Shown piece after piece: positions 14,859 to 57,143 of a stretch of DNA of 64,000 nt. The notes under the pieces were generated by a model. That model did not search any database. It was not told the origin of the DNA and saw only the letters and a list, made by a program, of their open reading frames with translations. The DNA is from Polytrichum commune (lineage: Eukaryota > Streptophyta > Polytrichopsida > Polytrichales > Polytrichaceae), in the NCBI GenBank assembly GCA_950295325.1, contig OX485807.1, forward strand, positions 18,199,666 through 18,263,665, in the 5' to 3' direction. Numbering within the stretch: the first letter of the stretch is position 1; each line of letters opens with the position of its first letter. The translations under genes and the position numbers were made by a program.

Positions 14859-14869
14859 GGCGATAATGA
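14859..14869. repeat. Left target-site duplication of element E1
   Basis: GGCGATAATGA immediately precedes the GGG end of E1. The same 11 bases follow the other end at 28425-28435. An 11-bp duplication is typical of Mutator-like elements (8-11 bp). Confidence 0.88.
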
Positions 14870-14937
14870 GGGAAGCTAGCATGTGAGCATTGAGCAGTGA
14901 GCAGTGAGCAGTGAGCGGTAACATGTGAGCAGTCAGC
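14870..14937 (+). repeat. E1 left terminus with subterminal GAGC heptamers
   Basis: The end reads GGGAAGCTAGCATGTGAGC and is followed by tandem 7-mers of the type TGAGCAG/TGAGCGG, then GGTAACATGTGAGC. Such clusters are candidate transposase-binding sites. Confidence 0.75.
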
Positions 14938-15261
14938 AAAAAAATGACCAATTATAGGATTTGAAAAGAAAATATTCCAAAATATTTGGATTATATATTA
15001 TGAAAATAACATTGTGGGAAAAAAAAATATTGAACTCGGCCCTATTACCATGGAATTCAAGAAGTTTGATGATCCACGGTGATAGGCATTTTATTGACAT
15101 GTCAAGTACGCCATTGAAATGGCGAGCACTTTATTGTGACAAACATCTATTTAGTTGTACCATCAGTTTGTGCTACATACATTTCATATGGATGTACACA
15201 AATATTTCTATATATGTAGAAATGATGAATAATTGCATCCATGTCCTTCACCCCTATGCCA

Positions 15262-18200
15262 CTACACCTTTTCTGCAACACCCGCAAGCTCAAGAAGTCG
15301 CATCACCTCATTGTAGCTAAATGTCGGTGCATGAATGAACTTGTCAGTGGCGTAGTCAACTTTGCACAAATACCTGAACACATAATACAAGTGCTTGCAT
15401 GAAACCCACTGACCCCTCTTTCCCACTGCCAAAGACAATATTTTTGCAAAGTCCGGGCAAGTGCATTGCGGGATATCTGCAATGGAGATAAGGTACGTCT
15501 TATCCTCTTTGGAAACTATGGTTATGATGCATCCATATCCAGGGTATGGAATGGGAGTCACACCAACCACATAGTACCCATCCATATGTAACGCGCTCTC
15601 CCACTTATTCCTATGCTATGATAATGGTGCTGCCATGTTTCGTCGAACTGCCTTGGAAAACCGTGTATTTGGATGCACATCTGGGTTTGGAGGAACACGG
15701 AAATGTGAACGAGGGATGGGGAGGTTTGTCATTGTTCTTAATCGACGACGTGGTGACAATGCCTCTTTCTGTTGGAGTTGAAACCCAGCATCTTCCAATG
15801 CAAACACCTCCTCCCGTGTAAGGTTTGTACCAACCTTCACCGGCCACACCTTAGGGAGATTTGGCCAATCAAACACCCATTTCTTCTTGCTCCCCTTCAC
15901 ACATCGATTAATGTCATCTGCACAAAACCAAAAATTTGTTGGAACGTGGTTGTTGGAACGGTATTCCTTCTTCATGCCTGTGTATGTTGGCGCAGGTGTG
16001 CCATGTGTACTTTTCCCAACTTTAGCCCTACATGGATGTCCAGTATTTGCCTGCAATGCTTGACACTCTTTCTTGGACGGATAAGGCAATCGTGAAATAT
16101 GCCATTGGGATTCATGACACTCTAACTCCAACACATTAGTGGTGTGAGACACCACATTTTCATCATGCTTGAAGGAATCATCTATGCGTGCCCTCTTTCA
16201 CCTTGTATTAGGGTGAGGGATGGAGTAGTTCACTTTGTCAGGACGATGAGAATCATACTCAGATCCAGGTGATAAGTCTAGTTTCCTCTTGGTTGATCCA
16301 AACAACTCAGAGCCCTCCAGTGCACAATTCCTTGTATTAAGATCCTCTGCCCCAGGGTATAACCTCATTGCCTCTGCAAGAAGCTTGGGATCACCGGTGT
16401 GTGCTGCAGCTTTGAGCTTCAATGATGCTTGATCTGGCCTTTTCCCTGAAGAACCCCCTTTAAGCCAAGAACGATAATTTGCGATCTGCATGAATGCGCG
16501 GATCATGTCATCCACGGTTGCCTCGTACAAACATGTCATTTTGTTCCCTGATTGTTGCAACCACTTGTTATGTACTGTTTCTGCTAGGTTGCAAGTTGGC
16601 ATCTCAGCACGTTGATCCAAAGTCAAATCCTGCAATACATATTGGGGATATTTTTAGTTTAAAAATGAACTGACACAACAATTTCATCAGTAATAAAAGA
16701 GGGGCACTTGTATATAAGAAAAACTTACAATGAGCATATGACCTCCCCATTGTCTATATCGATAATGCCAAAATCCCAACCATTCCGACAAGCTGTATAT
16801 GCCCTCCTCGGTGGTTGCCCCTGATGACAACCACCATGCCCGTATTACATGGTATTTGATGTCGGCGTCCTCCAAACTCTTGGCATCCTTGTAATCTTTA
16901 CAAAGTTGTTTGTGTTCATGCTGCAATGAAGGTCGGATGTGTTTTTGTGTTATTTTATCCAAATTAGCAGACCAATGAAAAAAACATGCACGCTCACGAC
17001 CCTCGAGGGGAACAGATGGGTCACCATCCCCGTAAATCTTCCTCACAGCAATCTAATTTGCTTGTGCACTGTCCGCCATGAATCCTTTGAAATTAACATT
17101 GGGAATACCATTCTCCAACATGACAGCATTTAAATTTTCCCAAAAAATGATCTGGGCCCGAGCATCCTCCGATTGCATATCACAACATGCTATTGTGAGA
17201 ACCTTGCAATGTTTGCTATCGTAGACATGACACGCCATTGTAGTCCAGTCTCGCAAACGCTTCACATGGTCAAACATGATCCACGAATTTTTCATGTCTC
17301 CTCCATACTGCATGCGCTTCACCAAATCGACTCCGTTTCCAGCAAGATCCACAGACATCTTAAACACAAAGACCTTATCTTTGGATTGCCCTGGAAACCG
17401 ACTATCATGTACATATTTGAACCCAGAGTGGTTTTTCAATGCTATGATGCTATCCAAGGAACCCATTCCACTGCGAATGAAACGTTTGGAACCCGCCACG
17501 AAGTTCCTACCGTTAGGGGAAGCCAAAGTGGAGAATTTATCCATTACCACCTCCAAGGATGCTCCATGAAGATGGTTTTTTTCTCCTAGGAGAGGGGATT
17601 TGAGGAGGTAATATGCCAAAAATTGTTTACTGGCAGTTATAACAATAGCTGAGTTCTTTGCGGTTGGAGTTTTAGCCACCTCATTTGCCACACACTGATA
17701 AGCCATGTCTAGTGATTCACGACACACTCCAATAGACACAGGGTGGTTATGAACACCCAAGTGGATACAAACACGCGACATGCTTGACGATTGTGAATGG
17801 ACGTATATAATTTTTGCATAGCAAACATCAAGACATATAGGAGCGGCATGACAAACCTTGCATTGAACCTTAGATTTCTCTGGCGGTTCAGTACCAACCA
17901 TGAAAGGAGTGGATGTTGTACCGATCCATTCGGTAGAGTTGCGAACTCCACCATTTCGTGAAAGATACTCACACGAGTCGTTAGGGCATTGGAGATGACC
18001 AACGCATGAAGACCTCCGAAAAGTCAAACCAAATTCATTCTGAATGTTTGTTGTTTTGGTTCTGCACCAGGCATGTCCATCGTAAATCTTGTCCATGCCA
18101 TCCATTGCCTTGCCATAAGCATCTGGAATTCCAGTCTTGACCGGCGGCAAAATGAAAATGACATCCCCATTGAAAGAAGACGGCAAATACTTCACATCCT

Positions 18201-18870
18201 CTATAATAATGTTATCAAAGTCAATATTTGTGAGATCTGATTTGGATCTTCTACGACACTTAGTGATTTTAAGGGCTTCCAATATATGGACATTAGCTAT
18301 GGATGACGTAGGATAAACATGAGGTTTTTTGGAGCGTATGTGCTGTTCAAAAATACTCGAGCTCAGTGGCTTGTAAGGGGAGGATACATTGCCATGCGGA
18401 GTTTGTACAGAAGATGGAGAAGCAAAAGAACATGGAGCTTGAAATGGATAAGATGAAGTCCCTGCAATGTCTACTCCTTGGATGTTATCTTCATCTGAAT
18501 CACTAAGGACCACCACATCATCTACCTCCAATTTAACCTTGCAAAGAGAATGAATTTGCGGTGTGGCCGTGATGGATTCATTTGTCAACAACACTGTGGA
18601 TGCATCCATTTCCAATTCGGACAATCCTATGACTTTATACGAGCCCGCGCCCAATGACCAAAAAGAACCACTATCCACTATTGATTTTTGCATCAAAATT
18701 GTTTCGCACAACTGACCAGTTTCTTGGAATAATTCTTGTTCCACATACATGGTACCAAGACGGAAGCTAAACTTTAGACTAAGCAAATTCTCTTGGACCA
18801 CTACAAAACCATCTGCACCCAAAGGAAGAGTGAAAGGAACAGAACAATCTCCCGCTCGAAGAGAGGCCAT
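15262..18870 (-). pseudogene. E1 transposase: MULE-type DDE with WRKY-GCM1-like and SWIM zinc fingers, three stops
   Basis: Two exons, 18870-16729 and 16629-15262, joined in phase 0 (1,170 codons with stop). The order matches E2: a non-conserved N-terminus with an acidic patch (VVVLSDSDED); a Cys/His cluster (SSCVGHLQCPNDSCEY, CKVCHAAPICLDVC, CIHLGVHNHPV) of WRKY-GCM1/FLYWCH type; a DDE-like core (WIMFDHVKR, FKGFMADSAQAN, ACFFHWSANLDK); a conserved middle block (MPTCNLAETVHNKW); and a C-terminal SWIM finger (PQCTCPDF then SCKHLYYVF). Three in-frame stops break it: TAG at 17055-17053 where E2 has TGG, TGA at 16200-16198 and TAG at 15618-15616. No frameshift is needed. The catalytic triad is not assigned residue by residue. 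Confidence 0.85.
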
Positions 18871-19338
18871 CGGAAGATAAATAAATTCAATGCAAACTCA
18901 TAAGAATGAAGAATGGAAATGATGCATGACATAGATATTAAATAATATGGACACAAACAAAAATAACAATACATATTTGCAACCTTTGTATATTCATAAC
19001 ACAATTTGAATAGTACTAGTGTATCCATTATTAGAATTCACGTGGCATACATTTTAAAAAACTTAGAAATATTGCAATGACAGCTCAAGTAGGGTTTGAA
19101 ATAATGCAAGGCTCTTATGTACCTTAAATCAGAATGCCACCACATACAATGTATTTATACACAAATTCAAAATGTGTGACGGCCAAAAATAAGCTATGAC
19201 GTATGAAAATGTGAAACCCTAAGATTCCAATAGTTACGGCATGTTGTTGTTGTTGTTGTTGTTGTTATACAACAATCAAACATGAGACGTTCAATTTCTA
19301 TTTGTTTTGCAAATTAATTTCCAATTTGATTTGTGCAA
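18871..19338. promoter_or_regulatory. Divergent promoter region of E1
   Basis: This 468-bp, AT-rich, ORF-free interval separates the start codons of the divergently transcribed transposase (Met at 18870, minus) and accessory gene (Met at 19339, plus). It includes a (TGT)n microsatellite near 19243-19266. The E2 equivalent is 51982-52200. Promoter function is inferred from position only. Confidence 0.5.
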
Positions 19339-19747
19339 ATGTTCAATGAAGATGTGTCCGCACATTCACAATTCTCAACTCCCTTGAAGAAACGCAGACG
19401 GAAAGGATCCTCCAAGTATTCGACGCGGAAAGCATTAGAGCGGTCGAGGATGGGGAAGAATTTGACTAGAATTACAAAACACGGCATATGTGCGACCACA
19501 CGAACTCTAACATTTGAAGACGCGGACCTCCTCAAAGATGGGATTGATACGGAACAACCCAACATCTATGCACATGAGGATGTGCAAATTATTAGTGAAA
19601 CAAGGCTTGATATCCAAGACATTGAAGAAGAAGTGGAGTCCCAACCCACACTAGAAGTAATTATTTGACCTAATATCTTCTTATTGTTAATTTCCTAGTC
19701 ATTGCCTAGAGTGGAAGTCGAATCTCATTGGTTATTGAGTTTAGGGT

Positions 19748-20206
19748 TTGGAATGGGGTGTTGGGAAGGAGAGGGCGGGTTCTCATTCCGTACGGCCTCA
19801 CTCGATGGCAAAGAATGCTAATGGGAGGGGTAGCACCACAATACCTCTCACCGCCACTTCTCCCCGACCACCATTGTTGCCATGCCGCAGATCAATGCGA
19901 AGACCCATCGGAGTGGCCAAGGAGAAACAAGTCCGGAACATACATGAGGTGACATTGGAGTTAGTTGAGGAGGGCCAAATGGAAGAGGACAAGGAGAGAG
20001 AAGATGAAGACAAAGACGACAATGAGGGTAGTCAATTGAGGGAGGAGGAGGAAGAAGAAGAAGAAGAAGAAGAAGAAGAAGAAGAAAGTGGAGGAGAGGG
20101 CGAGGAGGACGGCAAGCATCATGCCAAGGAGGATAGCAAGAGAGAGGGGGATGATGGAGAAGCGGACAAAACCTCTCCAATCCAGGTTTTCTCCCCCAAA
20201 CCCTGA
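19748..20206 (+). other. Acid-rich open frame in the long E1 intron
   Basis: An open frame of about 150 codons without a supported start. From ~19930 it encodes a strongly acidic stretch with a run of glutamates (GAA/GAG microsatellite, 20041-20092), then a mixed-charge tail. It sits between the first exon and the ParB exon of the accessory gene and could supply a missing exon 2 (PIQ followed by GTTTTC could be a donor). It could equally be microsatellite-driven chance coding. Confidence 0.35.
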
Positions 20207-20318
20207 TTTTACATATAGTTGATGAGATCCTAGTGTTTCCAAGTCCAATAGGTTATATGTTGTCAACTTGAGGGATGGAGGTGTTTATAACCAATTGATT
20301 TTTGATGTACCTGTAGGG

Positions 20319-20381
20319 TGATTGGCCACCAAGTGGCTTAAGTACCATAAAGCAACTTGCTTTTGTCCAATCACCCCCTCC
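20319..20381. repeat. Short inverted-repeat segment
   Basis: The stretch opens GGGTGATTGG and closes CCAATCACCC, perfect 10-bp inverted ends about 40 bp apart. It could be a tiny fold-back element. No target duplication was identified. Confidence 0.4.
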
Positions 20382-20464
20382 CCCTCCCCCCTCCAATCAG
20401 TGCTCGAGAAATTGTTGGGCAGAACAAAATTCTGCCAAATTTTTGGGTTTAGGGTTATTTAGCA

Positions 20465-20609
20465 GACCCATTAGTCTTTCGAATTTGAAGCTAGAGGTGT
20501 CAGAAAAGCTACCACAGGGATAACTGGCTTGTGGCAGCCAAGCATTCATAGCGACGTTGCTTTTTTATCCTTCGATGTCGGCTCTTCCTATTACTGTGAA
20601 GCAGAATTT
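20465..20609 (+). repeat. 25S/28S rRNA-derived fragment, copy 1
   Basis: About 145 bp matches the conserved domain V (peptidyl-transferase) region of nuclear large-subunit rRNA: ACCACAGGGATAACTGGCTT, GTGGCAGCCAAGC, CATAGCGACGTTGC, TCCTTCGATGTCGGCTCTTC and GTGAAGCAGAATT. It differs from the usual sequence in AAAGCTACC for AAAGTTACC and GCATTCAT for GCGTTCAT. All three copies share these changes, so they descend from one already mutated founder and are not functional rRNA. Confidence 0.88.
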
Positions 20610-20669
20610 CTAGAAAATCAGTAAGCTAGAAATACCATAACCCGTGAAAATAAGGTGATTTGCATTGAA

Positions 20670-20740
20670 GATATGGTCTGACAATCATGAGATAATTTTC
20701 CAAGATAGACGAGAAGGATTCATGAAGAATGCAAGAACCA
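20670..20740 (+). pseudogene. Small reverse-transcriptase-like fragment (first of three)
   Basis: Reads DNHEIIFQDRREGFMKNAR in one frame. This resembles the Q-x-GF region of LINE reverse transcriptases; the LINE at 32440-32510 has HQILQDRQEGF. Near-identical pieces recur at about 21818-21880 and 23412-23470, always as part of the rRNA/hairpin repeat unit. Confidence 0.45.
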
Positions 20741-20765
20741 ACCTAAAAATTTTATGCACAAACTC

Positions 20766-20885
20766 TAAATGCACATACTTGGCAGAATTCTGCAAGTGCA
20801 GAATTCTGTCAGGTGTACTTTCGTTGCCGAAGGTACACCTGACAGAATTCTGCACTTGCAGAATTCTGCCAAGTATGTGCATTTA
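20766..20885. repeat. Perfect 53-bp inverted repeat (hairpin) with 14-bp spacer
   Basis: Arms 20766-20818 and 20833-20885 are exact reverse complements around the spacer 20819-20832. Each arm contains two nested GCAGAATTCTG-type palindromes. The hairpin lies directly upstream of rRNA-derived copy 2. A degraded version (GGCAGAA...TTCTGCC) precedes copy 1 near 20416-20436. Confidence 0.93.
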
Positions 20886-20898
20886 GGGTTATTTAGCA

Positions 20899-21000
20899 GA
20901 CCCATTAGTCTTTCGAATCTGAAGCTAGAGGTGTCCGAAAAGCTACCACAGAGATAACTGGCTTGTGGTAGCCAAGCATTCATAGCGACATTGCTTTTTT

Positions 21001-21037
<37 letters not shown>

Positions 21038-21043
21038 GAATTT
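20899..21043 (+). repeat. 25S/28S rRNA-derived fragment, copy 2
   Basis: Same segment and same diagnostic changes as copy 1, directly after the 53-bp hairpin. A shared tail follows (GTAAGCTAGAAATACCATAA to TTGCATTGAAGATATG, ending near 21110). The unit is then interrupted by ~700 bp of unrelated sequence (21112-21814) with no recognised gene. Confidence 0.88.
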
Positions 21044-21908
21044 ATACAAAAACAGTAAGCTAGAAATACCATAACCCGTGAAAATAACGTGATTTGCATT
21101 GAAGATATGAGAACTTAATGGGCTTAGTCAACATGCATGGGTGAGGTGAGTGGAGTGGGTCCAGCTCACCACTTGCCTTCTTCACCCGGTGACTTCATCG
21201 CCGAGATCATCTTCACACGACGTAAAATTCATGGGGACCTCGGCACTCATTTAGGGAAATAATTGGGCTTGCAAATGCCCGCCACCAGCCGGCTGGGGTA
21301 TATGTGATGCCTTCTACATTGCCAATCACCATCTTTCGTTGTCTCGTCCGAATAAGTTATGGCAGCAGGATGACTACTATCGCTTCAACACGAGAGGAGG
21401 ATTGGACTCCCTGGTGTCCTGTTATGTCCTGTCCTTTAAGTAATTGAAGCACCTGAGTCTCGTGATCTTGTCCATGTCGACAAGACTTCTCGTCACACAA
21501 GCTAAAATCTAACCAAACAATCCCAAAGACGTGCAATCAACTCCTAAAGGCCAAGCTAAACTCCTCCCAAATCCGTCCAATACAACTCACTCGTGTTTCA
21601 AAGCTCGCTTCAGAAAATCCAGCAGTTCTTGTGGTAGATCTGATTGTGTGGATCGGAAGTCTTGTGGAATTAAGGATGTTTTTTTACGCAATTTTCTCGA
21701 CTGTTTGTGTGTTGAAATCGGAGGATTCGAACGTAAGCGTGCATGTTGGTGTCGTCGGGCAGCAGCAGCAGTGACTGCCCGGATGTCTTTACTTGATCCA
21801 CTCAAATGTCTGGTGGTCTGACAATCATGAGATAATTTTCCAAGATAGACGAGAAGGATTCATGAAGATTGCAAGAATCAACCTAAACATTTTATGCACA
21901 AACTTTTA

Positions 21909-21960
21909 TGCACAAACTTGGCAGAATTCTGCAATTGCAGAATTCTGCCAAGTTTGTGCA
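21909..21960. repeat. Perfect 52-bp palindrome without spacer
   Basis: The 52 bases are their own exact reverse complement, centred on GCAATTGC, with TGCACAAACTTGGCAG at the edge. It precedes rRNA-derived copy 3, in the same position as the 53-bp hairpin before copy 2. Confidence 0.93.
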
Positions 21961-21976
21961 TTTAGAGTTATGGAGC

Positions 21977-22079
21977 AGATCCATTAGTCTATCGAATTTG
22001 AAGCTAGAGGTGTCCGAAAAGCTACCACAGGGATAACTGGCTTGTGGCAGCCAAGCATTCATAGCGACGTTGCTTTTTT

Positions 22080-22116
<37 letters not shown>

Positions 22117-22122
22117 GAATTT
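21977..22122 (+). repeat. 25S/28S rRNA-derived fragment, copy 3
   Basis: Third copy with the same substitutions, followed by the shared tail to about 22189. The order palindrome, rRNA fragment, tail, RT-like piece defines a composite repeat unit. Confidence 0.88.
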
Positions 22123-22419
22123 ATACAAAAACAGTAAGCTAGAAATACCATAACCTGTGAAAATAACGTGATTTGCATTGAAGATATGGTCTGATAAGGC
22201 TTTACTCGATGGAGTAAAGCTGATGAATAGCTGAGTTGGGAAATGATTCTTCCGTACCTTGTCTCTCACGATTTATGAGCTGGAGCATGATCAACTTACT
22301 CTTGTACAGTCTATATTCCATAATCATAACCATAAACTGGTGGCCTCTTCAAATTGGTAGTCTCGTGGGGGGTTCCCTCACCCCCACGAATTAGTTTCTG
22401 GTGTCGCATTTATATTAAC

Positions 22420-23000
22420 TGCTTATGAATAACTTTGTCATTGTCCATGCTTACTGGGGGAGCCTCAAATTGCTGGGTAGGATGCGTGACACTCAAGAAA
22501 TTTGTTGGAAATAATTCAATGAGCTGTGGAAAGGAGCTTTCTGTGAAGTCCTTGATCAGGTCTTTAATCAAAGCTTCAACACACCACCTGTACATTAATG
22601 GTTATGTATATTCAAGGCATTATGATAATATGTAAAGTTAGTCCTTATTTAACTTCAGGCGATTTTCTTGAATGTGTTAAATTACTAATTTTTGCGTGAA
22701 CCATTTGTCCCATTTCCTTAATCAATTGTTACAAACCCACAATGATATTCTAGGTCTTTGTATGTAATTCTCTTTGAAACCGTTAGGGTCAGGAAGGAAA
22801 TACAGTCTGACAATGTTGTGTCTTGAATCGCTATTGATGTTGGCAATGTTTTTGTCTGCATCTGGATCCTTCATGCATCTCATTACCTGCAGCATGAATC
22901 TTTGCTTTGATGCAATCATTAGCTGTGGAAGACATTTTGTGATGATTTCACATGCTTGAGAAGAAACTGTAGTCAATTGCAGTTCACTAGAGCTTGGAAT
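22420..23000 (-). pseudogene. Probable captured host-gene fragment (two exon-like segments), unidentified
   Basis: On the minus strand, about 22990-22880 encodes SSQACEIITKCLPQLMIASK and ends at a plausible donor (CTGCAG|GTAATG). About 22590-22450 encodes ALIKDLIKDFTESSFPQ with TNFLSVTHPTQQFEAPP and ends at CCA|GTAAGC. The amphipathic helical composition resembles a HEAT/ARM-type repeat protein, but I cannot name it. Lying inside a MULE, it is best explained as gene capture. The flanking DNA to 23950 shows no other gene. Confidence 0.4.
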
Positions 23001-26000
23001 GTTCAACACTGTGTTTTAGTTGTGGTCACATATCTTGCACGTGCTACTCTGGGCTTAGCTGGTACTTCTGCCTGTCCACAACCTTGAGGTTCTTGAGCTT
23101 GTGTTGCTAGGTATATTAGTATATGCTTGTGGTCTTCTGGTTCAAATTGGGCCACAAAACCAATTTGCATTTAACAATTTCGGTTTATTCCTAATTTCCA
23201 AACAGCATGTGGTGATGGTGAATAGGGAATTATTGGACACTTCTGAGTTCAAAAGCTTAGAATTCAACATTTCTTACTTCAGAGGAGAATTGATCACAAG
23301 TTTCTCCAGGATGGGACGTTTGGATACATACCATGCATGCGTACTTGATAATAACTTACCGTTGCTGCTCGATTGTTGTATTTTATGTGTTGTTGTATCC
23401 ATTGAAGATATGGTCTGACAATCATGAGATAATTTTCCAAGATAGACGAGAAGGACTCATGACGAATGCAAGTTGTCAAAATACTTATCAACCTAAAACT
23501 TGAAAGTAGCTCACACAGCTATGTTCATACTCATAAATGTTAGTTTCTCATCAACTAGCGAAGGAACCATTATATAGCACAATGCAGTGATACACACTTC
23601 ACTTCCTTGCAATTCTATGATTCACAAATTACACGTTGATATCTTAGGTTTTGCTTCATTCGTTGCAGGTATATTTTCTAGATTTATCTAAAGTGGATAT
23701 GTTAGTATTCTCTAAAGTCTTGACCTCCAATCTGTTGTTTTTTCAAACTCAACTAGGGAGGTTTTTGGAGATAGTCACACTTGATCATAGTGTTTCCAAG
23801 TTCAATTGGTCACGTGATATGTGCTAGATTTGCTTTGTTTAGTGCAGGTACATTGTTAGAATTCATAGCATATTATGAACATGTTGTCCAATTTTGTTTT
23901 GGTGAGTTCAACAAAGTTGGTTCAATGGGTTTCTAATTATTTTTCTTTGTTATATGGATGTTAATGTTCAAGGTTTGGAAGACAAGGATTATGATGCCCG
24001 TAGGTTGAAAAGAACGGATTTTAATTCTATCATTAACCAACTGCGGGCGACCCCATATGAGAAATCGCGATTTTGTGTCCCATTGTGTCGTCTTGTGGTT
24101 TTACCATTGGTTAGACCAATCCTTGAGGGTGATGTTCAATTACTAGAGACTGAATTTTCCAATGGATACATGGAAGGAGATCGTGTTTTGTATGTGTCGA
24201 TTGCCAAAAATGATGGTTCTTCTCTTGATGTTACGGATGAGACAATTAGCTCTTGGGACCAACATTGGCAACGTGCAAATCATCGTTTTGAGAAAGAATT
24301 GGATAAGGACAAAGATTTGCATAAATTTAAAGGTAAAATGTTTTATGTTTGGGAGGGTAACCATCGAGTGACGGCGTGGTTACGCCACATTGAACGCCAT
24401 CATTCTGATGAAGAACGATGGCATTATTCAGTGGATTGCATTTTTTTGGATCCAAAAGGCTCGGTCGGAGTACTCCTCAATGCTATGAATGATGTCAACC
24501 GGTTAGTAACAATCATCATATCCCAACATTTTATTTGATATTTCTTTTTTGTTTCAAGTTCATTTTTAATCATTTATTTGTTGTATGCATATCAGATCCA
24601 CTGAGAACGATAATGTGAAAACCAATTTACCCCACAAGCTTCATCGCATACGAAATATAGGCATTTTGAAGCTTGATGAATTTAAAGATCTTATTTCTTC
24701 TGAAGACTACGCAAATTGCGTAAAAAAAAATCAAGGACTCCGTGGTACCCTTTGACGATCGATGTGTTTGCAACTTTGGTTTACAAGGTACAAATTTAAA
24801 TTTTGTTCGTTTTTAATGTTTGCTTTTAAAAATGTTAAGTGTGTAATTGCTATTGGTTTATGACTCTTATCTACAGAGAGAGGTGGTGGCTGCTGCTGAT
24901 GAGGCATCCAGGTTGTACAAAGAAAAGACTCCAATCAAAAAACAATCTGCGAAAGGAGAATGGGAAGAAATGGCCAAAGCTACAGCTGCAGTTGTCAGGT
25001 CGTTTAGGAAAAAAGAATTTGAGAAGATGCTCGCAGTAGCGGATCCTACAAATGGAGATGATTTCATGGTGGAGGTATGTTCTTATGCGAAATTTTCTAA
25101 AATCATTGTAATGTGTTTCAATTTTGTTTTGTTTTGATTTATGAATGTTTTTGTATGCAGATAAATAAACACTGGACATCCAACTCTAAACCAGAACTCA
25201 CGTTGGAGAAGCTTCAGAAAATAGCCACTACTCGTGTACCTGGCCAATTTAAAGCTAGATGGCTCAAATGGTGGAATTCTAGTTCTATGTCCCGGGTTTC
25301 CCTACATTTGACTTCAAATGATACCAAAGACTCCGAACTAGATGTATGGTTGTCAAAAGCATCATTTTGGGCTCAGGTACCTCTATTTTCATTGATAATA
25401 ATTAGTTATTTTGAGAAATGTATGATTTTGTATTGGGATGGATAATGTATTGATGTGTTGATATGTTTTTTTATATAGGTGGAAGCAGCTGTTGTTAATG
25501 AATTTGAATCCATGAAAGCTGAAATTGGAAATATCGAAGTTAACACAAGCGTGCTATCGCTTCCAGATTACATTGAAAAGTGGAGAATTTTGCTATGGGG
25601 AAAAACATTTTTGACAATAATGAAATGAAATCCTTCATTTACAAAATTTACGCAGCTCACAAAAATTCATGAAGCAGATTCAATCATTAAGCGTGTTCTT
25701 TACAGGTTAAAATTGTATTGAAATTTGATTATTATTATGCTTATCACAACGCTTTATTCTTGATATAATTTAATTATGAAAGTCCATTTATTTTTTTTAT
25801 GGTTATTTGTTTGAAATTAATTTTAACTTCTTCTTATTGAAATTTGGTGTAGGTATTTACGACGAGAATTGATAGCAAAGGGAGCTATTCTTGAACAAAG
25901 TTTGCCTCAATACTTGGCAGCGTGGGTTGATAAATCAAGTGATCTTTGTATTTTCGAAGCATCACATATGGAAACATGGCCTCTAAGAATTTTGCAGTCG

Positions 26001-28375: not shown

Positions 28376-28424
28376 TCAAAACTTACCGCTCATTGCTCAC
28401 CGCTCACATGATAGCACCCCCCCC
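28376..28424 (-). repeat. E1 right terminus with subterminal GAGC heptamers
   Basis: Read inward on the minus strand: a run of G, then TGCTATCATGTGAGCGG, TGAGCAATGAGCGG and TAAG. It mirrors the left end (GCTAGCATGTGAGC) and is followed by the 11-bp target duplication at 28425-28435. Between the accessory gene's stop and this terminus (27835-28375) only AT-rich sequence is seen. Confidence 0.75.
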
Positions 28425-28435
28425 GGCGATAATGA
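28425..28435. repeat. Right target-site duplication of element E1
   Basis: GGCGATAATGA, identical to 14859-14869. Confidence 0.88.
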
Positions 28436-35142: not shown

Positions 35143-35151
35143 TTGATGTCA
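35143..35151. repeat. Left target-site duplication of element E2
   Basis: TTGATGTCA directly precedes the GGG end and recurs at 57144-57152. A 9-bp duplication is the commonest length for Mutator-like elements. Confidence 0.9.
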
Positions 35152-35208
35152 GGGAAACTTAGTAGTGTGAGCGTAGAGCAGAGAGCGGAGATTGGAGAGC
35201 GGAAAATT
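35152..35208 (+). repeat. E2 left terminus with subterminal heptamers
   Basis: After GGGAAACTTAGTAGTGTGAG come 7-bp units of the type GAGCGTA, GAGCAGA, GAGCGGA. The right terminus holds the same series in reverse complement. Confidence 0.78.
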
Positions 35209-38156: not shown

Positions 38157-38182
38157 GGACCCTCTCGGAACCGAGAGGGTCC
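38157..38182. repeat. 26-bp inverted repeat containing the satellite palindrome
   Basis: GGACCCTCTCGG-AA-CCGAGAGGGTCC has perfect 12-bp arms around AA. The core CTCGGAACCGAG is the palindrome in every well-preserved unit of satellite S1, but this copy stands outside the arrays, ~0.5 kb past the 3' end of the accessory gene. The surrounding 38040-38560 is C-rich low-complexity sequence (CCCCAACCCC-type runs). Confidence 0.85.
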
Positions 38183-47600: not shown

Positions 47601-50600
47601 ATAACAAAATCAAAATCTGGTCCAAGTGGCCGAATCCTCCTACCTCTCGGAACCGAGGCCCTTAGTGTATACATATTATCAACCACAAATAAAGTAAAAA
47701 ATCTGGTATATGTGCCGAATCTTTCTACCTCTCGGAACCGAGACCCTTAGTCTAGACACATTATAAACCTTATAACAAAATCAAAATTTGGTCCAACTGG
47801 CCGAATCCTCCTACCTCTCGGAACCGAGACCTTGTATCTATACACATTGTCAACCTTATAACAAATCAAAATCTGGTCCAAGTTTCCGAATCCTCCTACC
47901 TCTCGGAACCGAGACCCTTAGTGTAGACACATTATCAACCTTATAACAAAATCAAAATCTGGTCCAAGTGGCCGAATCCTCCTACCTCTCGGAACCGAGA
48001 CCCTTAGTCTAGACACATTATAAACCTTATAACAAAATCAAAATCTGGTCCAAGTGGCCGAATCCTCCTACCTCTCGGAACTGAGACCCTTAGTGTATAC
48101 ACATTATCAACCACAAATAAAGTCAAAAATCTGGTATATGTGCCGAATCCTCCTACCTCTCGGAACCGAGACCATTAGTCTAGACACATTATCAACCTTA
48201 TAACAAAATCAAAATTTGGTCCAACTGGCCGAATCCTCCTACCTCTCGGAACCGAGACCCTTAGTGTATACATATTGTCAACCACAAATAAAGTCAAAAA
48301 TCTGGTATATGTGCCGAATCCTCCTACCTCTCGGAACCGAGACCCTTAGCCCACTCACAATATCAACCACACACAAATTCAAAAATCTGGTCCAAGTGGC
48401 CGAATCCTCCTACCTCTCGGAACCGAGACCCTTAGTGTATACATATTATCAAACACAAATAAAGTCAAAAATCAGGTATATGTGCTGAATCCTTCTACCT
48501 CTCGGAACCGAGACCCTTAGTCTAGACACCTTATCAACCTTATAACAAAATCAAAATCTGGTCCAAGTGGCCGAAACCTCCTACCTCTCGGAACCAAGAC
48601 CCTTAGTCTAGACACCTTATCAACCTTATAACAAAATCAAAATCTGGTCCAAGTGGTCGAATCCTCCTACCTCTCGGAACCGAGACCCTTAGTCTAGACA
48701 CCTTATCAACCTTATAACAAAATCAAAATCGGGTCTAACTGGCCGAATCCTACTACCTCTCGGAACCGAGAGCCTGTATCTATACACATTATCAACCTTA
48801 TAACAAAATCAAAATCTGGTCCAAGTAGCCAAATCCTCCTACCTCTCGGAACTGAGATACTTAGCCCACTCACAATATCAACCACACACAAATTCAAAAA
48901 TCTGGTCCAAGTGGCCGAATCCTCCTACCTCTCGGAACTGAGACCCTTAGTGTATACACATTATCAACCACAAATAAAGTCAAAAATCTGGTATATGTGC
49001 CGAATCATCCTACCTCTCGGAACCGAGACCCTTAGTCTAGACACATTATAAACCTTATAACAAAATCAAAATCTGGTCCAAGTGGCCGAATCCTCCTACC
49101 TCTCGGAACCGAGACCCTGTATCTATACACATTGTCAACCTTATAACAAATCAAAATCTGGTCCAAGTTTCCGAATCCTCCTACCTTTCGGAACCGAGAC
49201 CCTTAGTCTAGACACATTATCAACTTTATAACAAAATCAAAATCTGGTCCAACTAGCCGAATCCTCCTACCTCTCGGAACCGAGACCCTTAGTCTAGACA
49301 CCTTATCAACCTTATAACAAAATCAAAATCTGGTCCAAGTGGCCGAATCCTCCTACCTCTCAGAACCGAGACCCTTAGTCTAGACACCTTATCAACCTTA
49401 TAACAAAATCAAAATCTGGTCCAAGTGGCCGAATCCTCCTACCTCTCGGAACCGAGACCCTTAGTCTAGACACCTTATCAACCTTATAACAAAATCAAAA
49501 TCTGGTCCAAGTGGCCGAATCCTCCTACCTCTCGGAACCGAGACCCTTAGTCTAGACACCTTATCAACCTTATAACAAAATCAAAATCTGGTCCAACTGG
49601 CCGAATCCTCCTACCTCTCGGAACCGAGACCCTTAGTCTAGACACCTTATCAACCCTATAACAAAATCAAAATCTGGTCCAAGTGGCCGAATCCTCCTAC
49701 CTCTCGGAACCAAGACCCTTAGTCTAGACACCTTATCAACCTTATAACAAAATCAAAATCTGGTCCAAGTGGCCGAATCCTCCTACCTCTCGGAACTGAG
49801 ACCCTTAGTGTATACACATTATCAACCACAAATAAAGTCAAAAATCTGGTATATGTGCCGAATCCTCCTACCTCTCGGAACCGAGACCCTTAGCCCACTC
49901 ACAATATCAACCACACACAAATTCAAGAATCTAGTCCAAGTGGCCGAATCCTCTTACCTCTCGGAACTGAGACCCTTAGTGTATACACATTATCAACCAC
50001 AAATAAAGTCAAAAATCTGGTATATGTGCCGAATCCTCCTACCTCTCGGAACCGAGACCCTTAGCCCACTCACAATATCAACCACACACAAATTCAAGAA
50101 TCTGGTCCAAGTGGCCGAATCCTCCTACCTCTCGGAACTGAGACCCTTAGTGTATACACATTATCAACCACAAATAAAGTCAAAAATCTGGTACATGTGC
50201 CGAATCATCCTACCTCTCGGAACCGAGACCCTTAGCCCACTCACAATATCAACCACACACAAATTCAAGAATCTAGTCCAAGTGGCCGAATCCTCCTACC
50301 TCTCGGAACTGAGACCCTTAGTGTATACACATTATCAACCACAAATAAAGTCAAAAATCTGGTATATGTGCCGAATCCTCCTACCTCTCGGAACCGAGAC
50401 CCTAAACCCACTCACAATATCAACCACACACAAATTCAAAATCTGGTCGAACTGGCAGAATCCTCCTACCTCTCGGAACCGAGACCCTATATCTATACAC
50501 ATTATCTACCTTATCACAAATCAAAATCTGGGTCAAGTTTCCGAATCCTCCTACCTCTCGGAACCGAGACCCTAAACCCACTCACAATATCAACCACACA

Positions 50601-51981
50601 CAAATTCAAAATCTGGTCGAACTGGCAGAATCCTCCTACCTCTCGGAACCGAGACCCTATATCTATACACATTATCTACCTTATCACAAATCAAAATCTG
50701 GGTCAAGTTTCCGAATCCTCCTACCTCTCGGAACCGAGACCCTTCACCCACTCACAATATCAACCACAAACCATTTCAAAAATCTGGGATATGTGCCGAA
50801 TCCTCCTACCTCTCGGAACCGTTACCCTTACTCTATACACCCCCTCACCCACAAACAAATTCAAAAATCTTGTCCAAGTTGCCGAGTCCTCTTACCTCTC
50901 AGATCCGAGACCCTTATTCTAGACACCCCTCACCCATACACAAATTCAAAAATCTGTTTCACGTGGCCGAATGTTCCTACCTCTCGGAACCGACACTTAG
51001 GAGTACCCACATTATCAACCCAACATAACTTCAAAATCTGGTTTAAGTGCCGAATCCACACATCCAGCCAAAACTTCAAAATCTGGTGTAAAGGTTGAAT
51101 CCATACCTCCAAAAGAACCTTCAAAATCTGTTGTGAAGGCCGAATGCTCTCTATCTAAGAAAACCCCACAATCGGTGTATGTGTCCAAACCCTCTAAGCC
51201 CTCCGAATCGTTACCCTTAGTCTCGACACTATCTTATCCAAAAGTCTTGTCTAAGTGGCCGAGTCCTCGGAAACACATCCTCGGTATCCCCTAGTTCTAA
51301 GTGGCCCAAGACTATAGCCTCTCGGACCCTAAACCCTTCCCACATGATCATCCCACTATACTTTTAAACCATGTCAAATATACCTAAACCCAGGGGCCCT
51401 TTCACCTTAACACCGACATTAAACCATTCCGAAATGTGACCATGAACTACCCTCTCGGAACCGAGAGATACTCCTTAATAGAAATATACAACATGTCTGC
51501 TTTGTGACCTTTACACACATATACATTATTTCCTGAAGGTGGCCTGGATTTCAACAATAACGCAAACATTCATGTCGTGTTTCCATTCCACTCAATCTTC
51601 AAATACCCATTATTCATATATCCACAACATCAATCTTACTATAAGAATGGAATCATCTCTTGTCTCCTCGCGAGACCCGCTTTGATTGGAACAGTTGAGA
51701 TGCTCGCTCTCTGCCATAGATGGTGCGGCTGAATCACTGTCCTCCCGGTCTTCCTCTATCGCCTCGAGATTTAATTGTCTTTTCGAAGATCCTCTCTTGC
51801 TCTCTCCACCTATGTTTTGCAAGTCTGTTGGGGTGCCTCTTCCCTCTATGTATGATTCCTCCTTCTTCAGTTCTCTCCGTCTCCTCTGTTTCGAATTGCT
51901 GAAACTCGTGCCTCCTTTTCGCTTCTTTCGCTTCCTTCCTGTATCTATTGTGGAATCTGTATTGTGCTCTGGTTCCTTCAT
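38690..51981 (-). CDS. E2 ParB-like / beta-class amino-methyltransferase fusion protein, 12 exons, ~1,186 aa
   Basis: Exons in transcript order: 51981-51640, 46477-46361, 46258-45681, 45598-45403, 43905-43708, 43616-43398, 43317-43079, 42987-42312, 42219-41875, 39558-39300, 39178-38977 and 38879-38690. All have GT-AG borders and matching phases and sum to exactly 1,187 codons with no internal stop. Residues 1-115: nuclear-type basic stretch (GRKRKKRKGG, KQRRRRELKK), then acidic. Residues ~185-345: ParB/sulfiredoxin-like, PLCRLHCLPLVRPISEVDV then MFFVWEGNHRLTAWFRHI. Residues ~345-630: conserved with E1, unknown (FKAKWLRWWNS). Residues ~630-855: variable, basic and Pro/Ser-rich linker. Residues ~856-1125: methyltransferase order IV-X-I, with GIDLLFADVPENL, GIPWRGAREK and IVFDWQCGLGGS...RHIVALDSD. 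Motif IV is DVPE rather than DPPY, so activity is uncertain. Exon 1 assignment rests on phase, position and its E1 counterpart. Confidence 0.8.
39592..41850. repeat. Satellite S1 array A (intron 9 of the E2 accessory gene)
   Basis: About 26 tandem units of ~86 bp. A consensus unit runs CGAATCCTCCTACCTCTCGG, AACCGAGACCCTTAGTCTAG, ACACATTATCAACCTTATAA, CAAAATCAAAATCTGGTCCA, AGTGGC. A second subtype replaces the middle with GCCCACTCACAATATCAACC or with GTATACATATTATCAACCAC. Each good unit contains the palindrome CTCGGAACCGAG. The array fills nearly the whole intron. Confidence 0.92.
43955..45320. repeat. Satellite S1 array B (intron 4 of the E2 accessory gene)
   Basis: About 16 units of the same family, mostly of a subtype with CGAATCATACTACCTCTCGG and CCCATTCACAATATCGACC, plus a subtype with GACTAGGCACCCCCTCAACC. 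The palindrome CTCGGAACCGAG is kept in most units, although a few have CTCGGAACGGAG. Confidence 0.92.
46500..51480. repeat. Satellite S1 array C (intron 1 of the E2 accessory gene)
   Basis: The largest block, over 50 units of ~86 bp between exon 1 (ends 51640) and exon 2 (starts 46477). Homogeneous in the centre (47,000-50,800) and diverged at both ends. Higher-order repetition is visible at 49,760-50,780, where a two-subtype dimer of ~172 bp repeats. Open frames inside it, such as 49769-50575, are by-products of the repeat. Confidence 0.92.
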
Positions 51982-52200: not shown

Positions 52201-55200
52201 ATGGCTTCCTCGTCCACCGTGCCCTCTGTATCCGAAATGGTTGAGCTCCGTGCCAATGGCCTCGGAATCCCTATTCTTTTTCCCGTCGATGCCAACGGTG
52301 TTGCATCTGTCTCTTCTCTTCACCTTAGTATCAGATTTTCTTTGCAAGATAGTACAATATGGGTCGAACGCGAGATTTATGATATTACTACTTCCATGTT
52401 GTCATTGACCGTCTGTGAGAATCCTAGGGTTGCCGACAACAGATCCTCAACGTGGGAACTCTGCTCTGGTAAATACAGGGTGTACGGACTCCCAGGTCCT
52501 TGCACGAATGGATCCACGGATTTCCGTACCCCTCCCCATTCCTCTGCCTCCACTTTCAACATTCCTCCCCTCGTCAAAGTTAAGATTGAACCCGGTGTTC
52601 ACACTGTCATCCATCTTTCCGATTCCTCCGATGGTGATGAGCCCCCCGTATCCACTCCCATTCGCGAGCCATCCCCCTCCTCCCTCCATTCCGCCGCTGT
52701 TACCCCTCCTCTTTTGTCTCCTCTTCCTCCCTTTCCAACCAAACCCCCCTATTCCATTCTTCAATGTCTACGTTCTCTTGCTTCCATGCCCGGTAGGAAG
52801 AACATCCTCAAGAAGCTAGATTATGACACCTTACAAATTCAAGAGGTGAATTTCCTGCCGCCACGCTTTGATGGTGATCTCATGTTTGTCCTACCCCCAC
52901 TCGGTCTTTCTTCTTCTCATAAGAAGGCCCAATCCATGGACGGCATGGACAAACGCTATGACGGCCATGTTTGGACTAAGACCCAGACCACCAATATCAC
53001 CAATGTCATGGGCCTTGTTTTTCGCTCCTCCAGTTGTGTTGGCCACCTCGAATGCCAAAATCCTCAGTGCGATTACCTGCAACGTGCTCATCGGACTTCC
53101 CTCGTCAATGATACTGATTTCGACGGTTTCACCAAGGATCCCTTCCCCGTTGGTGGTCCCTTGCCTTTGGGATCCACTCTAATGTGCCGGATCTGTAAGG
53201 AGCCTCCCAAATGCATTGCACCATGTCACGCCAAAATCTTCTACGTCCACGGCAATACCACCACTCAGCATGCCTGTATCCATCTCGGCAACCATCATCA
53301 TCCCGTCAAGGTTGGCAATTGCAGAGATAGCCAACAGCGCATCGACGCCCTCATCGAGGAGCTCGTCGAGCGAACGCCCCAAGCCACGCATAGCAAAATC
53401 GTCCTTGAAGCCAGCAAGGACCTTGTGGGTGAGTTCCTCCTCCGCAATGATACTGATCCTCATAAACTCCTTTCTTTGGAAGAACTTGAGCCCGTTTTTG
53501 ATCGTTGCAAGGAGTTGCATTCCCCCCACCTCCGAAACAAGGTTACCACTTTCAAATACTTACGTAGATTGGGGGTTATGGATGGCATCGCCAAGCTTCG
53601 AGGTGTCAGCACCTGGGCCTATGTCCAGCGGAATCAATTCCCAGGCCAGGGTGACGATACGGACAAGGTTTTCGTTTTCAAGATGTCCGAGGTCGGCCCT
53701 GGTAGTGGGGTCGACTTGGTTAAGCGCATGCAACCTGGCGGGGATCTCGAGCACGCTTGGATCATGTCCGACCATGTCAAACGCGTCGCCAAGTGGACCA
53801 CCATGGCCTGCCACGTATACGACGGTACCTACCAGCACGTCATGACCATCGCTTGCTGCGACTTCCAATCCGAGGACAAGGATGCTCAAGTTCTTTTCTG
53901 GCATAACCTCAACCACGTCATGGCCCGCCATGGATTCCCGAAGCCCCACTTCAAAGGCTTCATGGCAGACAATGCCCAAGCCAATTGGAATGCCGTCAGG
54001 ATTGTTTACGGGTCCGGAGACCCCAAGGTTCCCATCGATGGGCGTGAGAGAACCTGCTACTTCCATTGGACCCAGTCTTTGGAGAAACACACCAAGCTCT
54101 ATATCAAGCATGACTTGCAAGACCAACACAAACGTCTCTGCCTGCAGTATCGCGACGCATCCTCTATGCTCGAGGCGGAAACGAGGTACCTCGCCATCAA
54201 GGCCTAGTGGGCTTCGTCTAACTGCACCTCCGAGGAGGGGCTCAAACACCTTCAGCTTTGGCTGGCCTTCTGGCACTTTCGTTATCCACAATGGGGTGGC
54301 TTCATGGAATTGGTGCGTCTTTAGTGTTATTCCTCTTTGTTTTCTGTTTTTTTTTTTTTTTCAAGCTTTTCTTATTTCTTGCACACCCTTTCCATTGCGC
54401 AGGAGAAAATCATGACCGCCGAGGAATTTGCACAAATGCCCAATTGCAACCTTGCCGAGTCCATTCACAACAAATGGCTCCAAGCTTCCGGCAACAAAGG
54501 TGGCGATCTTTACGTGGCCACTGTGGATGACTATATTCAAGCCTTCCTCCAAGTTGTGGCGTACCATCAGTTTCTTAAGGGTGGCGTTGGGGGCGATGGC
54601 CCTAGCAAAGAAGAACTCAAGCTTCGTGCTGCTCAACGTCGTGCTCAACGTACTGGTGACCTCGCTGTCCTTCAAAAGGTTCTTCTCGACATGCCTGGCG
54701 GTGAGGAATTTTGTACTCGTAGTCCCCACCTTGAAGGTGCCGAAGTCTTTGGCTCCCAGAAACGCAAGCCTGACACACCCATTGGTGCTGATGATGAAAC
54801 CCACCGCCCCGACACCCTCAACTTCTCTCGCCCTCGTGTCGCTCAGAGAACCACAAGATCTCACGCTTCACCTTTGCCTACCATCGTCGAGGAGTCCTCC
54901 CCGACAGTGATCGAGGTTCCACCACCCCCTCCTACTGGATTGGATTTCTGTCGTGTCACTGCCGTACAAGAATCCAATGTGGACGAGAAGCTCTGGCATA
55001 TTGCTCGCGTTCCTTACAATTCCTCCAAAGCATGTTGGGCCATGCATACTGTCACCAAGAAGAAATGCACTGCCAAAATCGTCTCCAACTCCAAGAGCAC
55101 CCCTGCACCGGCATACGTTGGAGTTTGGAACTATTACAAATTCACAACACCTAAGGTCGAGAAGTTTTTTTTTTGCCCGGACGACATTGAACGTTGTGTC

Positions 55201-55859
55201 AAAGGATCCCGTCGCAAGTGGGTCGACAAATTCTCCGCAGACCAAGAAGGACCTCCAATCCCGCCCGTGTGGCCTGTCAAAATTGGTACCAACCTCACTC
55301 GTCCGGAGATCCTTAAGCTTGAGAACGCCGGCTTTCAGCTCCCACAAAAAGAGCGCATCACGCCCACTCGCCTCTTCACCACATCCACTCCTCCACTCGA
55401 CCTCTCTGGAGTGGACGTTCCTGCCAACCCAGACTCGTATCCTTCTTCCAGACAGTCCAAGACTACGAGACGGTCTGCCACCGCACCATCAGCAAAACAA
55501 ATGCAGATGGTCGCATCTGCCCGAGCTATGGAAGGGACCATTTTGAAGGTGACCATGATTCCACGACCTGGATTTGGTTGCGTTATCATGTTGCAGTCCA
55601 AACCTGCACCTACTCAATCAATTACCAACTCACAGTCAGTTCCCTGCCCGAGTGTAATTGCCCAGCCTTCAAGGATATGATATCAAAGTTTGGCCGTAAA
55701 CGAAATTCGTTCCTGCATTGTAAGCACCTCTACTTCATATTTGTCAAGGTCTCTAATGTAGACCCCGAAGTTGACTTGTTCATTCATGCCCCTACCTTTA
55801 GCTTCAATGAGGTCAAACTCATCCTCGAAGGGGGCCTCTTGACACAGTCTACTTCCTAG
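52201..55859 (+). pseudogene. E2 transposase: MULE-type DDE with WRKY-GCM1-like and SWIM zinc fingers, one stop and one frameshift
   Basis: Exons 52201-54312 and 54403-55859, split at the same place as in E1. Residues ~245-385: Cys/His cluster (SSCVGHLECQNPQCDYLQ, CRICKEPPKCIAPC, ACIHLGNHHHPV) of WRKY-GCM1/FLYWCH type. Residues ~530-650: DDE-like core (WIMSDHVKRVAKW, FKGFMADNAQANWNAV, TCYFHWTQSLEKH). After the intron comes MPNCNLAESIHNKWLQASGN, then a region shared with E1 (VWPVKIGTNLTRPE). C-terminal SWIM finger: PECNCPAF then HCKHLYFIF. Damage: TAG at 54205-54207 where E1 has TGG, and a one-base shift near 55590-55610, just before the SWIM domain. GC content is higher than in the E1 gene. 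Apart from these two lesions the frame is open. Confidence 0.88.
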
Positions 55860-56076
55860 AATTACTCTCATCCTAGCACTACATTTTGTCCTCATGGATG
55901 TGGTCAGTTCTGGACCGAATGTGAACTCATAATTGATTGCTATAATAAATATAATCTCATAGATTATTTTTATTCCCTTCAAAATTTTGTATTACAATAT
56001 TCAAATGTGTCATGTGTCTCTCTCCCGGTTGAACATTTCATTTTCAATTTTAAGGTGTTACCTATCTCTATCAAAT

Positions 56077-56589
56077 CTACTTCCGTTTCGCCAACCTTCT
56101 AGGTGTTTCATCGTCCCTTCTTGATGGAGGTAGACCCGGTCGAAGCAAATCAATGTATGACACCGTTTTATCCCTCATTCGATCCTTCAATGGACGAGGA
56201 TGCGGCAACAATCCTCTCATCCTCTCGCGAAATGACAAAGACCTCGAAGATTCGCCTACTACCTTCACCTCATCCTCCCCGTTCGTCGTCTTGTCTTCAT
56301 TCAAATCAGCGTCTTCATTCATATCAACGTCCTTCTCCTGCACATCCGCTCGCGTTTTATTTTTCTTTGCATATTGTTTCTGCTCCTCCTGCATCCTCCA
56401 CCTCCAAGCTTGTGTGGACTGCGAAAATGGAGTGAGTTCGTAGTCATCACTACATTGCTTTCCAGCACCTTTGTCATGTTCCGGCGATGGATTAAAAGGA
56501 ACATGGGGATCTCCTAGACTCCTAATCTCCTTCTCCCATCCTAGGCCAGCGAACGTGTCTTTCTCCTCTCCCATTGTGTCCCTAAACAC
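56077..56589 (-). CDS. Hydrophilic basic/acidic ORF near the right end of E2, unknown
   Basis: 170 codons from an ATG at 56589, convergent with the transposase. The product is strongly charged: acidic middle (MNEDADLNEDK), several basic clusters (KKNKTR, SRRDDETPRRLAKRK) and no hydrophobic segment, suggesting a nuclear protein. FRERMRGLLPHPRPLKDRMR is a notable repeat-like stretch. No family recognised and no E1 counterpart. Codons look ordinary, but purifying selection cannot be judged from one copy. Confidence 0.4.
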   Translation of the reverse strand: MFRDTMGEEKDTFAGLGWEKEIRSLGDPHVPFNPSPEHDKGAGKQCSDDYELTPFSQSTQAWRWRMQEEQKQYAKKNKTRADVQEKDVDMNEDADLNEDKTTNGEDEVKVVGESSRSLSFRERMRGLLPHPRPLKDRMRDKTVSYIDLLRPGLPPSRRDDETPRRLAKRK

Positions 56590-57064
56590 TCTACATCCGT
56601 ATTGGGTACGAGTCTACCTTATGTCCTTATATATTTTGAGCTGAAGATAATCTCTTCAAACAATAATTGTGCGAGTCCAAGCTCTATAGTTGACTCACAC
56701 ATAGGACAAATATAAAAGTGATGGAATAAAAAACTAAGCAAGGTGGTCGCCATTTGTATTTTCTTTGACTAAATCTTCAATTATACCAAACTCGATAAAA
56801 TCATTTTAAAATCTTCTTTTTTGGAATCACCCTTGGTTTAAATCATATACTTATCTATTTTATCATAATTCTTATATCATTTTTGCACTTCCCGTATTCT
56901 AAATTTAACGACTACATTTCAAATTCAGATCATTTTCATTTAATGTTGGACCTATCCATTCCACAAAAATAGGTCATACATTTTTGGTATTTTTGGTAAA
57001 TTCTGGAATATTCCAGGTATATTCTTTTCTATTTAAATTTTTGCTAAATTTAGTCTGACAAGTT

Positions 57065-57143
57065 TGCTATTTTTTCTTCATCTCCGCTCTCCGCTCTCCA
57101 AATCTCTGCTCTCCGCTCTACGCTCACATAGCTGTGTCGTCCC
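57065..57143 (-). repeat. E2 right terminus with subterminal heptamers
   Basis: Read inward: GGGACGACACAGCTATGTGA, GCGTAGAGCGGAGAGCAGAG, then GAGAGCGGAGAGCGGAG. Followed by the target duplication at 57144-57152. The region 56590-57064 between the last ORF and this end is AT-rich with no gene. Confidence 0.78.

Follow-up and report, generated by a model that had tools for sequence, protein, structure and literature searches.

What is the role of the second gene that accompanies the transposase gene in two transposable elements of Polytrichum commune? We analyzed a stretch of 64,000 nt (the window; OX485807.1:18,199,666-18,263,665, forward strand), in which all coordinates below are positions. 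It belongs to a genome of 407.8 Mb in 64 contigs. The two elements, E1 and E2, resemble Mutator-like elements (MULEs). Each carries a transposase gene and, pointing away from it, a gene for a protein of about 1,000 aa with ParB-like and amino-methyltransferase-like parts, named here the accessory protein. A third element, E3, has the same divergent pair. The accessory exon bears the mark of purifying selection, and a palindrome, CTCGGNNCCGAG, recurs in arrays beside the accessory gene. This recurrence is new relative to the initial annotation, which had described the gene pair. We suggest, giving the idea about an even chance, that the accessory protein is a palindrome-binding, element-specific anti-silencing regulator, a functional analogue of the VANC protein of Arabidopsis VANDAL elements.

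E1, E2, and E3 were read end to end. All three are complete elements with GGG...CCC ends, bounded by target-site duplications (TSDs). The boundaries of E1 and E2 are as follows.

14859..14869: left TSD of E1, GGCGATAATGA
14870..14938, plus strand: left end of E1, GGG and 7-bp tandem units resembling GTGAGCA
28381..28424, minus strand: right end of E1, inverted heptamers and a C run
28425..28435: right TSD of E1, GGCGATAATGA
35143..35151: left TSD of E2, TTGATGTCA
35152..35203, plus strand: left end of E2, GGG and heptamers
57080..57143, minus strand: right end of E2, inverted heptamers and CCC
57144..57152: right TSD of E2, TTGATGTCA

The 11-bp GGCGATAATGA (12 bp counting an ambiguous C) occurs in the window at 14859 and 28425 and nowhere else. 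The 9-bp TTGATGTCA occurs at 35143 and 57144, with one extra copy at 27226. The densest GAGC windows were the left ends of E1 and E2, and the densest GCTC windows were their right ends. Both results bore out the boundaries, GGG ends, and GAGC heptamer clusters of the initial annotation. E3 was found by reading 25 kb around one of several equally scoring accessory copies of 64% identity. It is 16,665 bp long, with a 9-bp TSD CCACCCGAG and the ends GGGAAACTCAAGTATGTGAGCG and CGCTCACATACAAGTGTCGTCCC. The TSD lengths of 11, 9, and 9 bp fall within the 8–11 bp given for MULEs (PMC6446971). The terminal inverted repeats (TIRs) are of MULE type and short, with GGG and about 11–14 nt followed by inverted heptamer clusters. 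A blastn comparison of E1 with E2 gave six short matches, every one inverted, collinear, and within or across exons.

In E2, the palindrome was found mainly in 85-bp tandem arrays, where cores were counted with up to three mismatches.

39596..41770, plus strand: 85-bp array in accessory intron 8 of E2, 25 palindrome cores
43960..45290, plus strand: 85-bp array in accessory intron 3 of E2, 16 palindrome cores
47022..51057, plus strand: 85-bp array in the divergent spacer of E2, 47 palindrome cores
46536..46875, plus strand: four degenerate units directly upstream of the E2 accessory ATG
38157..38182: isolated 26-bp palindrome of E2, GGACCCTCTCGGAACCGAGAGGGTCC

E2 contains 63 copies of CTCGGNNCCGAG, and the rest of the window contains none. 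Exact 14-mers numbered 62 in the window, all in E2 and none in exons; four of them lie outside the arrays, and three of these have longer arms (8, 9, and 12). After alignment of 88 E2 units, the best 33 columns were 96% conserved and the rest 82%, a contrast that none of 20,000 column shuffles reached. The best conserved block of the arrays contains TCTCGGAACCGAGA. The degenerate units near the accessory start kept the 85-bp phase, and their core was 96% identical to the intron-3 consensus while the rest was 57% identical.

The same core was present in other repeat contexts. The E3 spacer consists of different units of 96 to 486 bp, yet it holds 32 copies of CTCGGATCCGAG, and all 32 palindromes in the 25 kb around E3 lie between the two genes. 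In other copies, the palindrome units measured approximately 95–107 and 139 bp. Thus, the core is kept in E2, E3, and other copies while the surrounding units change. Among the best 30 accessory copies, 13 (E2 included) had at least three CTCGGNNCCGAG in the approximately 1.5 kb preceding the ParB exon, and two had one. Near-exact palindromes in the upstream 10 kb numbered 23 in copy L054 and 20 in copy L053.

The spacer of E1 is different in content and holds no CTCGGNNCCGAG.

18900..23953: E1 spacer, with three repeats containing 25S rRNA-like fragments, a hairpin, and six GCAGAATTCTGC-like palindromes

Within it, 20403-22188 contains the three 273-nt repeats with the rRNA-like fragments (best match to LSU_rRNA_eukarya, 1.7e-18) and a hairpin with 63-nt arms. 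GCAGAATTCTGC is the most repeated palindrome of E1, present between 20782 and 21948 as three pairs 16 bp apart. Its six near-exact copies were considered as a second target type and dropped, as they are embedded in the hairpin and rRNA-fragment repeats.

The accessory genes of E1 and E2 were modeled as follows.

23954..27588, plus strand: E1 accessory gene, 9 exons, frameshifted, with the ParB-like exon at 23954-24501 and methyltransferase-like exons at 26529-27588
38690..46465, minus strand: intact E2 accessory gene, 11 exons coding for 1068 aa
45681-46258, minus strand: ParB-like exon of the E2 accessory gene
41875-42219, 39300-39558, and 38977-39178, minus strand: methyltransferase-like exons of the E2 accessory gene

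Among the four genes of E1 and E2, the E2 accessory gene is the sole intact one, a point absent from the initial annotation. Exon 2 of the E1 accessory gene is frameshifted, and its exon 5 contains an in-frame stop in a stretch that we read as two compensating shifts. In the E3 accessory gene, one in-frame stop was seen, also in exon 5. All 19 listed introns of the E1 and E2 gene models have GT-AG borders. When frameshifts were allowed for, all eight E1 accessory introns corresponded in place and phase to introns 2–9 of E2; the proteins were 37% identical (353/950). The match of exon phases and order despite strong protein divergence was therefore confirmed, as was the divergent arrangement in both elements, which E3 repeats.

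The transposase genes were less well preserved.

15262..18870, minus strand: E1 transposase gene, two exons (16729-18870 and 15262-16629), three in-frame stops
52201..55860, plus strand: E2 transposase gene, two exons (52201-54312 and 54403-55860), one in-frame TAG and one frameshift

Both exon stretches of the E3 transposase are open and 71–74% identical to those of E2. The E1 and E2 transposases were 45% identical, and their single intron agrees in place and phase. Residues D541, D590, C619/H622, and E723 and the CxC...CxH motif (E2 numbering) were kept in E1, E2, and a transposase on contig L012; we take these residues to be those of MULEs. The initial annotation had named a WRKY-GCM1/DDE/SWIM transposase. 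Zinc-finger, DDE-type, and SWIM-type motifs are ascribed to the transposases here, with D/D/E and CxC...CxH conserved, but neither the whole transposases nor their parts gave a MULE, SWIM, or zinc-finger match in Pfam. An AlphaFold2 model of a piece of exon 1 was too poor to use (mean pLDDT 35.5). The elements are therefore called MULE-like on the basis of TSD length, ends, and these motifs.

The two genes diverged to nearly the same extent. Between E1 and E2, differences at codon positions 1, 2, and 3 were 0.430, 0.347, and 0.665 for the accessory gene (582 codons) and 0.435, 0.342, and 0.677 for the transposase gene (880 codons). Near-equal divergence is expected if the genes descended together; with third positions near saturation, it appears supportive of co-descent, not decisive. 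The upstream 10 kb of three further accessory copies contained one whole divergent transposase gene (E3), one N-terminal piece in divergent orientation (L054, matching residues 6-238 at 81%), and none (L053). Upstream of the L053 copy, at about position 3000, a gypsy-like reverse transcriptase frame was read by eye.

A search of the same genome with the E2 ParB exon gave 1287 first-look candidates, of which 150 were scored. The exon is thus present in at least 150 scored places, all with E < 1e-73, and a hand count found 109 of the 150 free of internal stops. The dN/dS ratio (nonsynonymous to synonymous) was calculated for pairs among the best 30 copies. Its median was 0.18 in the 221 of 435 pairs that were kept (dS 0.02–1.0, the remaining pairs being excluded), and 96% of those pairs were below 0.5. 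The median was 0.32 for close pairs (dS < 0.15, n = 44). These values indicate that the accessory exon has been held under purifying selection throughout amplification. Together with the ends and gene pair of E3 and the equal divergence, they support the claim that the pairing is old and kept.

Relatives were found beyond this genome as well. When bacterial genomes were scanned with the transposase alignment, a single contig, L012, turned up; it is assigned to a cyanobacterial metagenome-assembled genome (MAG; Synechococcales, AVDCRST_MAG81). Its transposase gene has two exons and the same GT-AG intron, is open from the contig edge to the stop, and is 55% identical to E1. The MAG also has two accessory-gene contigs, L021 and L022, which, like L012, are separate and short. 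All three are likely mis-binned eukaryotic DNA. L021 was 25–42% identical to the E2 accessory protein by exon. In L021, the region of exons 6–9 is a single open frame of 548 codons, indicating that introns 6–8 are absent, and an interruption in motif I keeps its place. Upstream of the L021 accessory gene are four units of approximately 107 bp, three with TCTCGGATCCGAGA and one degenerate. A scan of the bacterial genomes with the accessory alignment detected no relative, yet one of those genomes contains accessory genes, so pattern scans of this kind miss relatives. No relatives were detected in the viral contigs scanned.

The C-terminal part of the accessory protein aligned to beta-class amino-methyltransferases over the motif X/I region, which covers S-adenosylmethionine binding. 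PHROG phage methyltransferase profiles matched the E1 region at 1.1e-8 and 1.1e-6 and the E2 region at 0.0036 at best; the Pfam N6_N4_Mtase match of E1 (0.0012) was below the family cut-off. A phage search with this part gave weak matches only, many of them to proteins with a methylase annotation; the lowest E listed was 0.006. In each of the five proteins read, D[LVI]PE stands in place of [DNS]PP[YFW], the catalytic motif IV of beta-class N6A/N4C enzymes (DLPE in E1, DVPE in E2, L021, and L022, and DIPE in E3), and motif I was also off consensus. The stretch LIADLPEGL scored −1.3 bits against LIVADPPYGL of a solved enzyme, not significant by itself; it was assigned to the catalytic loop because of its place in the motif order. 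Because D[LVI]PE is present in all five proteins, the change is a family trait. In a rotifer 4mC enzyme, changing SPPY to APPA abolished activity (PMC8885841). Ordinary methylation by the accessory protein therefore seems unlikely from its motifs, and the altered motif IV suggests that the domain serves binding.

The N-terminal part carries a GNHR motif in 29 of 32 copies. GNHR aligned on GxHR, which is common to most of the 11 ParB-like proteins compared and which we take to be the ParB/sulfiredoxin active-site motif. An hhalign comparison of the ParB exon with these 11 proteins was not significant (P 0.24–0.44). The exon had no match in Pfam or PDB or in phage and plasmid collections, and its AlphaFold2 model was too poor to use (mean pLDDT 44.8). 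Calling this part ParB-like is thus a reasoned guess from the motif. Of the ParB-like and amino-methyltransferase-like fusion described initially, the methyltransferase matches and GNHR stood, while a significant ParB profile was missing and motif IV was altered.

These observations are brought together by the proposed anti-silencing regulator. The accessory protein would bind the CTCGGNNCCGAG palindromes as a symmetric dimer, in the spacer and in the introns of its own gene, and would prevent host silencing from closing the promoter region. Its methyltransferase domain, with motif IV altered, would act in binding and not in ordinary methylation. The layout is that of VANC systems with another protein and a symmetric site, which favors a self-targeted regulator, most likely an anti-silencing one. 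The CpG observed/expected ratio fits anti-silencing: it is 0.75 for E2 and 0.61 for E1, higher than the 0.36–0.50 of three adjacent stretches.

Several points weigh against this proposal. E1 has no CTCGGNNCCGAG, and 15 of the 30 copies lack an exact CTCGGNNCCGAG in approximately 1.5 kb upstream; either not every copy has the site, or it sits at another position. A 6+6 palindrome arose in 2045 of 20,000 shuffled units, so symmetry by itself says little; the palindrome evidence consists in one core recurring in different units. The degenerate units were found with the core-containing block, so their 96% versus 57% contrast is partly selected. Instead of the accessory protein, it could be the transposase or some host factor that binds the palindromes. 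The CpG excess may be explained by youth or array homogenisation alone, and one further E2 array, at 36311-37587 with separate 36-, 117-, and 156-bp units, has no CpG (ratio 0.0). The ParB homology is at the motif level without statistical support. The initial interpretation has weaker points too: the methyltransferase part probably lacks normal catalysis, the MULE label is drawn from motifs and TSD length without a Pfam match, and intron positions 6–8 are not retained in the distant relative L021.

Other functions can be read into the same evidence. The accessory protein may be an active N6A/N4C methyltransferase that marks its own palindromes or ends, as the DNA methyltransferases (DNMTs) of retrotransposons may. 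The E1 matches to phage DNA methyltransferase profiles (1.1e-8) and the likeness of a symmetric site to modification targets speak for it, as does the de novo CG methylation of which retrotransposon DNMTs are capable (PMC5890265). D[LVI]PE in all five proteins and the off-consensus motif I tell against activity, since losing Ser and Tyr from SPPY inactivated the rotifer enzyme (PMC8885841); we regard this reading as improbable. A role in transposition, in which the protein would assemble the ends or the spacer DNA, or introduce nicks through its ParB-like domain, seems slightly less improbable, though still doubtful. The bacterial ParB-methylase Bce_0392 nicks DNA through its ParB domain (PMC5512222), and maize mudrB is apparently needed for integration (PMC6446971). 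The palindromes, however, lie in the spacer, introns, and other noncoding parts and not in the terminal repeats, and the ends have an unrelated heptamer.

The arrays may also be neutral satellite DNA, or may serve the transposase or host factors as targets, with the function of the accessory protein unrelated to them. Large transposons often hold tandem repeats, and the absence of the exact upstream site from E1 and half of the sampled copies is in line with this explanation. It does not readily account for the same core both in a distant relative and in repeat units that differ, nor for isolated exact copies outside arrays with longer arms, up to 12, and we hold it to be about as improbable as active methylation. 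The anti-silencing regulator is preferred over these readings. As to its origin, we raise tentatively, and think it rather unlikely, that a MULE lineage acquired a ParB-methylase of bacterial type. By parS-like loading on the arrayed spacer palindromes and spreading over the element, it would keep the element open or hypomethylated, with palindrome flanks and arrays co-evolving for subfamily self-recognition.

Other features lie around the elements. Plant-type genes nearby include a purple acid phosphatase and an amino-acid transporter; glycosyltransferases matched weakly. Sequence resembling a long interspersed nuclear element (LINE) flanks E2 on both sides (57842-58507, plus strand; 32507-32821; 59058-59324). 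It has a reverse transcriptase match (2.6e-9), an open reading frame whose match to PCIF1_WW (3e-8) passes the cut-off, and an RNase H end whose match (0.0015) falls short of it. PCIF1 is an N6-adenosine methyltransferase. E2 may be nested inside a LINE with a PCIF1-like domain.

If the anti-silencing proposal is true, VANC-type anti-silencing was not a single invention, and the same arrayed-motif layout evolved with a different protein. The accessory protein and CTCGGNNCCGAG would be a candidate protein–DNA pair, and the elements would be an example of a ParB/methyltransferase-like fusion at work in eukaryotes. Given its abundance in one genome, the accessory exon may affect the host genome strongly.

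Our searches of the open-licence literature showed no MULE that carries a gene for a ParB or amino-methyltransferase protein, in agreement with the initial annotation, which knew of no such MULE class. Related systems share parts of the design. Maize MuDR (mudrA/mudrB) is a MULE with a second gene, and the role of mudrB is unclear (PMC6446971). TET/JBP DNA transposons of fungi and SET-carrying MuDR elements of oomycetes have epigenetic-type enzyme genes aboard; their enzyme families and hosts are different, and an arrayed target site is not mentioned in the available part of the source (PMC12730594). Dinoflagellate and charophyte DNMT elements are also mobile elements with a DNA methyltransferase, but they are retrotransposons, and their enzyme is a C5-methyltransferase of shown activity (PMC5890265). 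Bacterial Bce_0392 and phage ParB combine ParB and adenine methylase in a single protein (PMC5512222), whereas the ParB exon here matched nothing in the collections of phages, plasmids, and PDB structures.

VANDAL elements are the closest in layout. They too are MULEs with an accessory gene (PMC5735166), and they are described as non-TIR elements (PMC13317346). VANC binds short motifs arrayed in tandem repeats, both upstream of the transposase gene VANA and within introns of VANC and VANB (PMC5735166), and it induces loss of methylation (PMC5735166; PMC10398659). A comparable arrayed noncoding motif, the putative target, was present in E2, E3, and 13 of the 30 copies (E2 counted) and absent from E1. 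The VANDAL/VANC comparison made initially is strengthened by the arrays in the E2 spacer and accessory introns. VANC contains DUF1985/DUF287 and its 8–9-mer motifs lie in one orientation (PMC5735166); neither domain had a Pfam match in the accessory proteins of E1 and E2. Here, the protein is ParB/methyltransferase-like and the arrayed motif is a symmetric palindrome.

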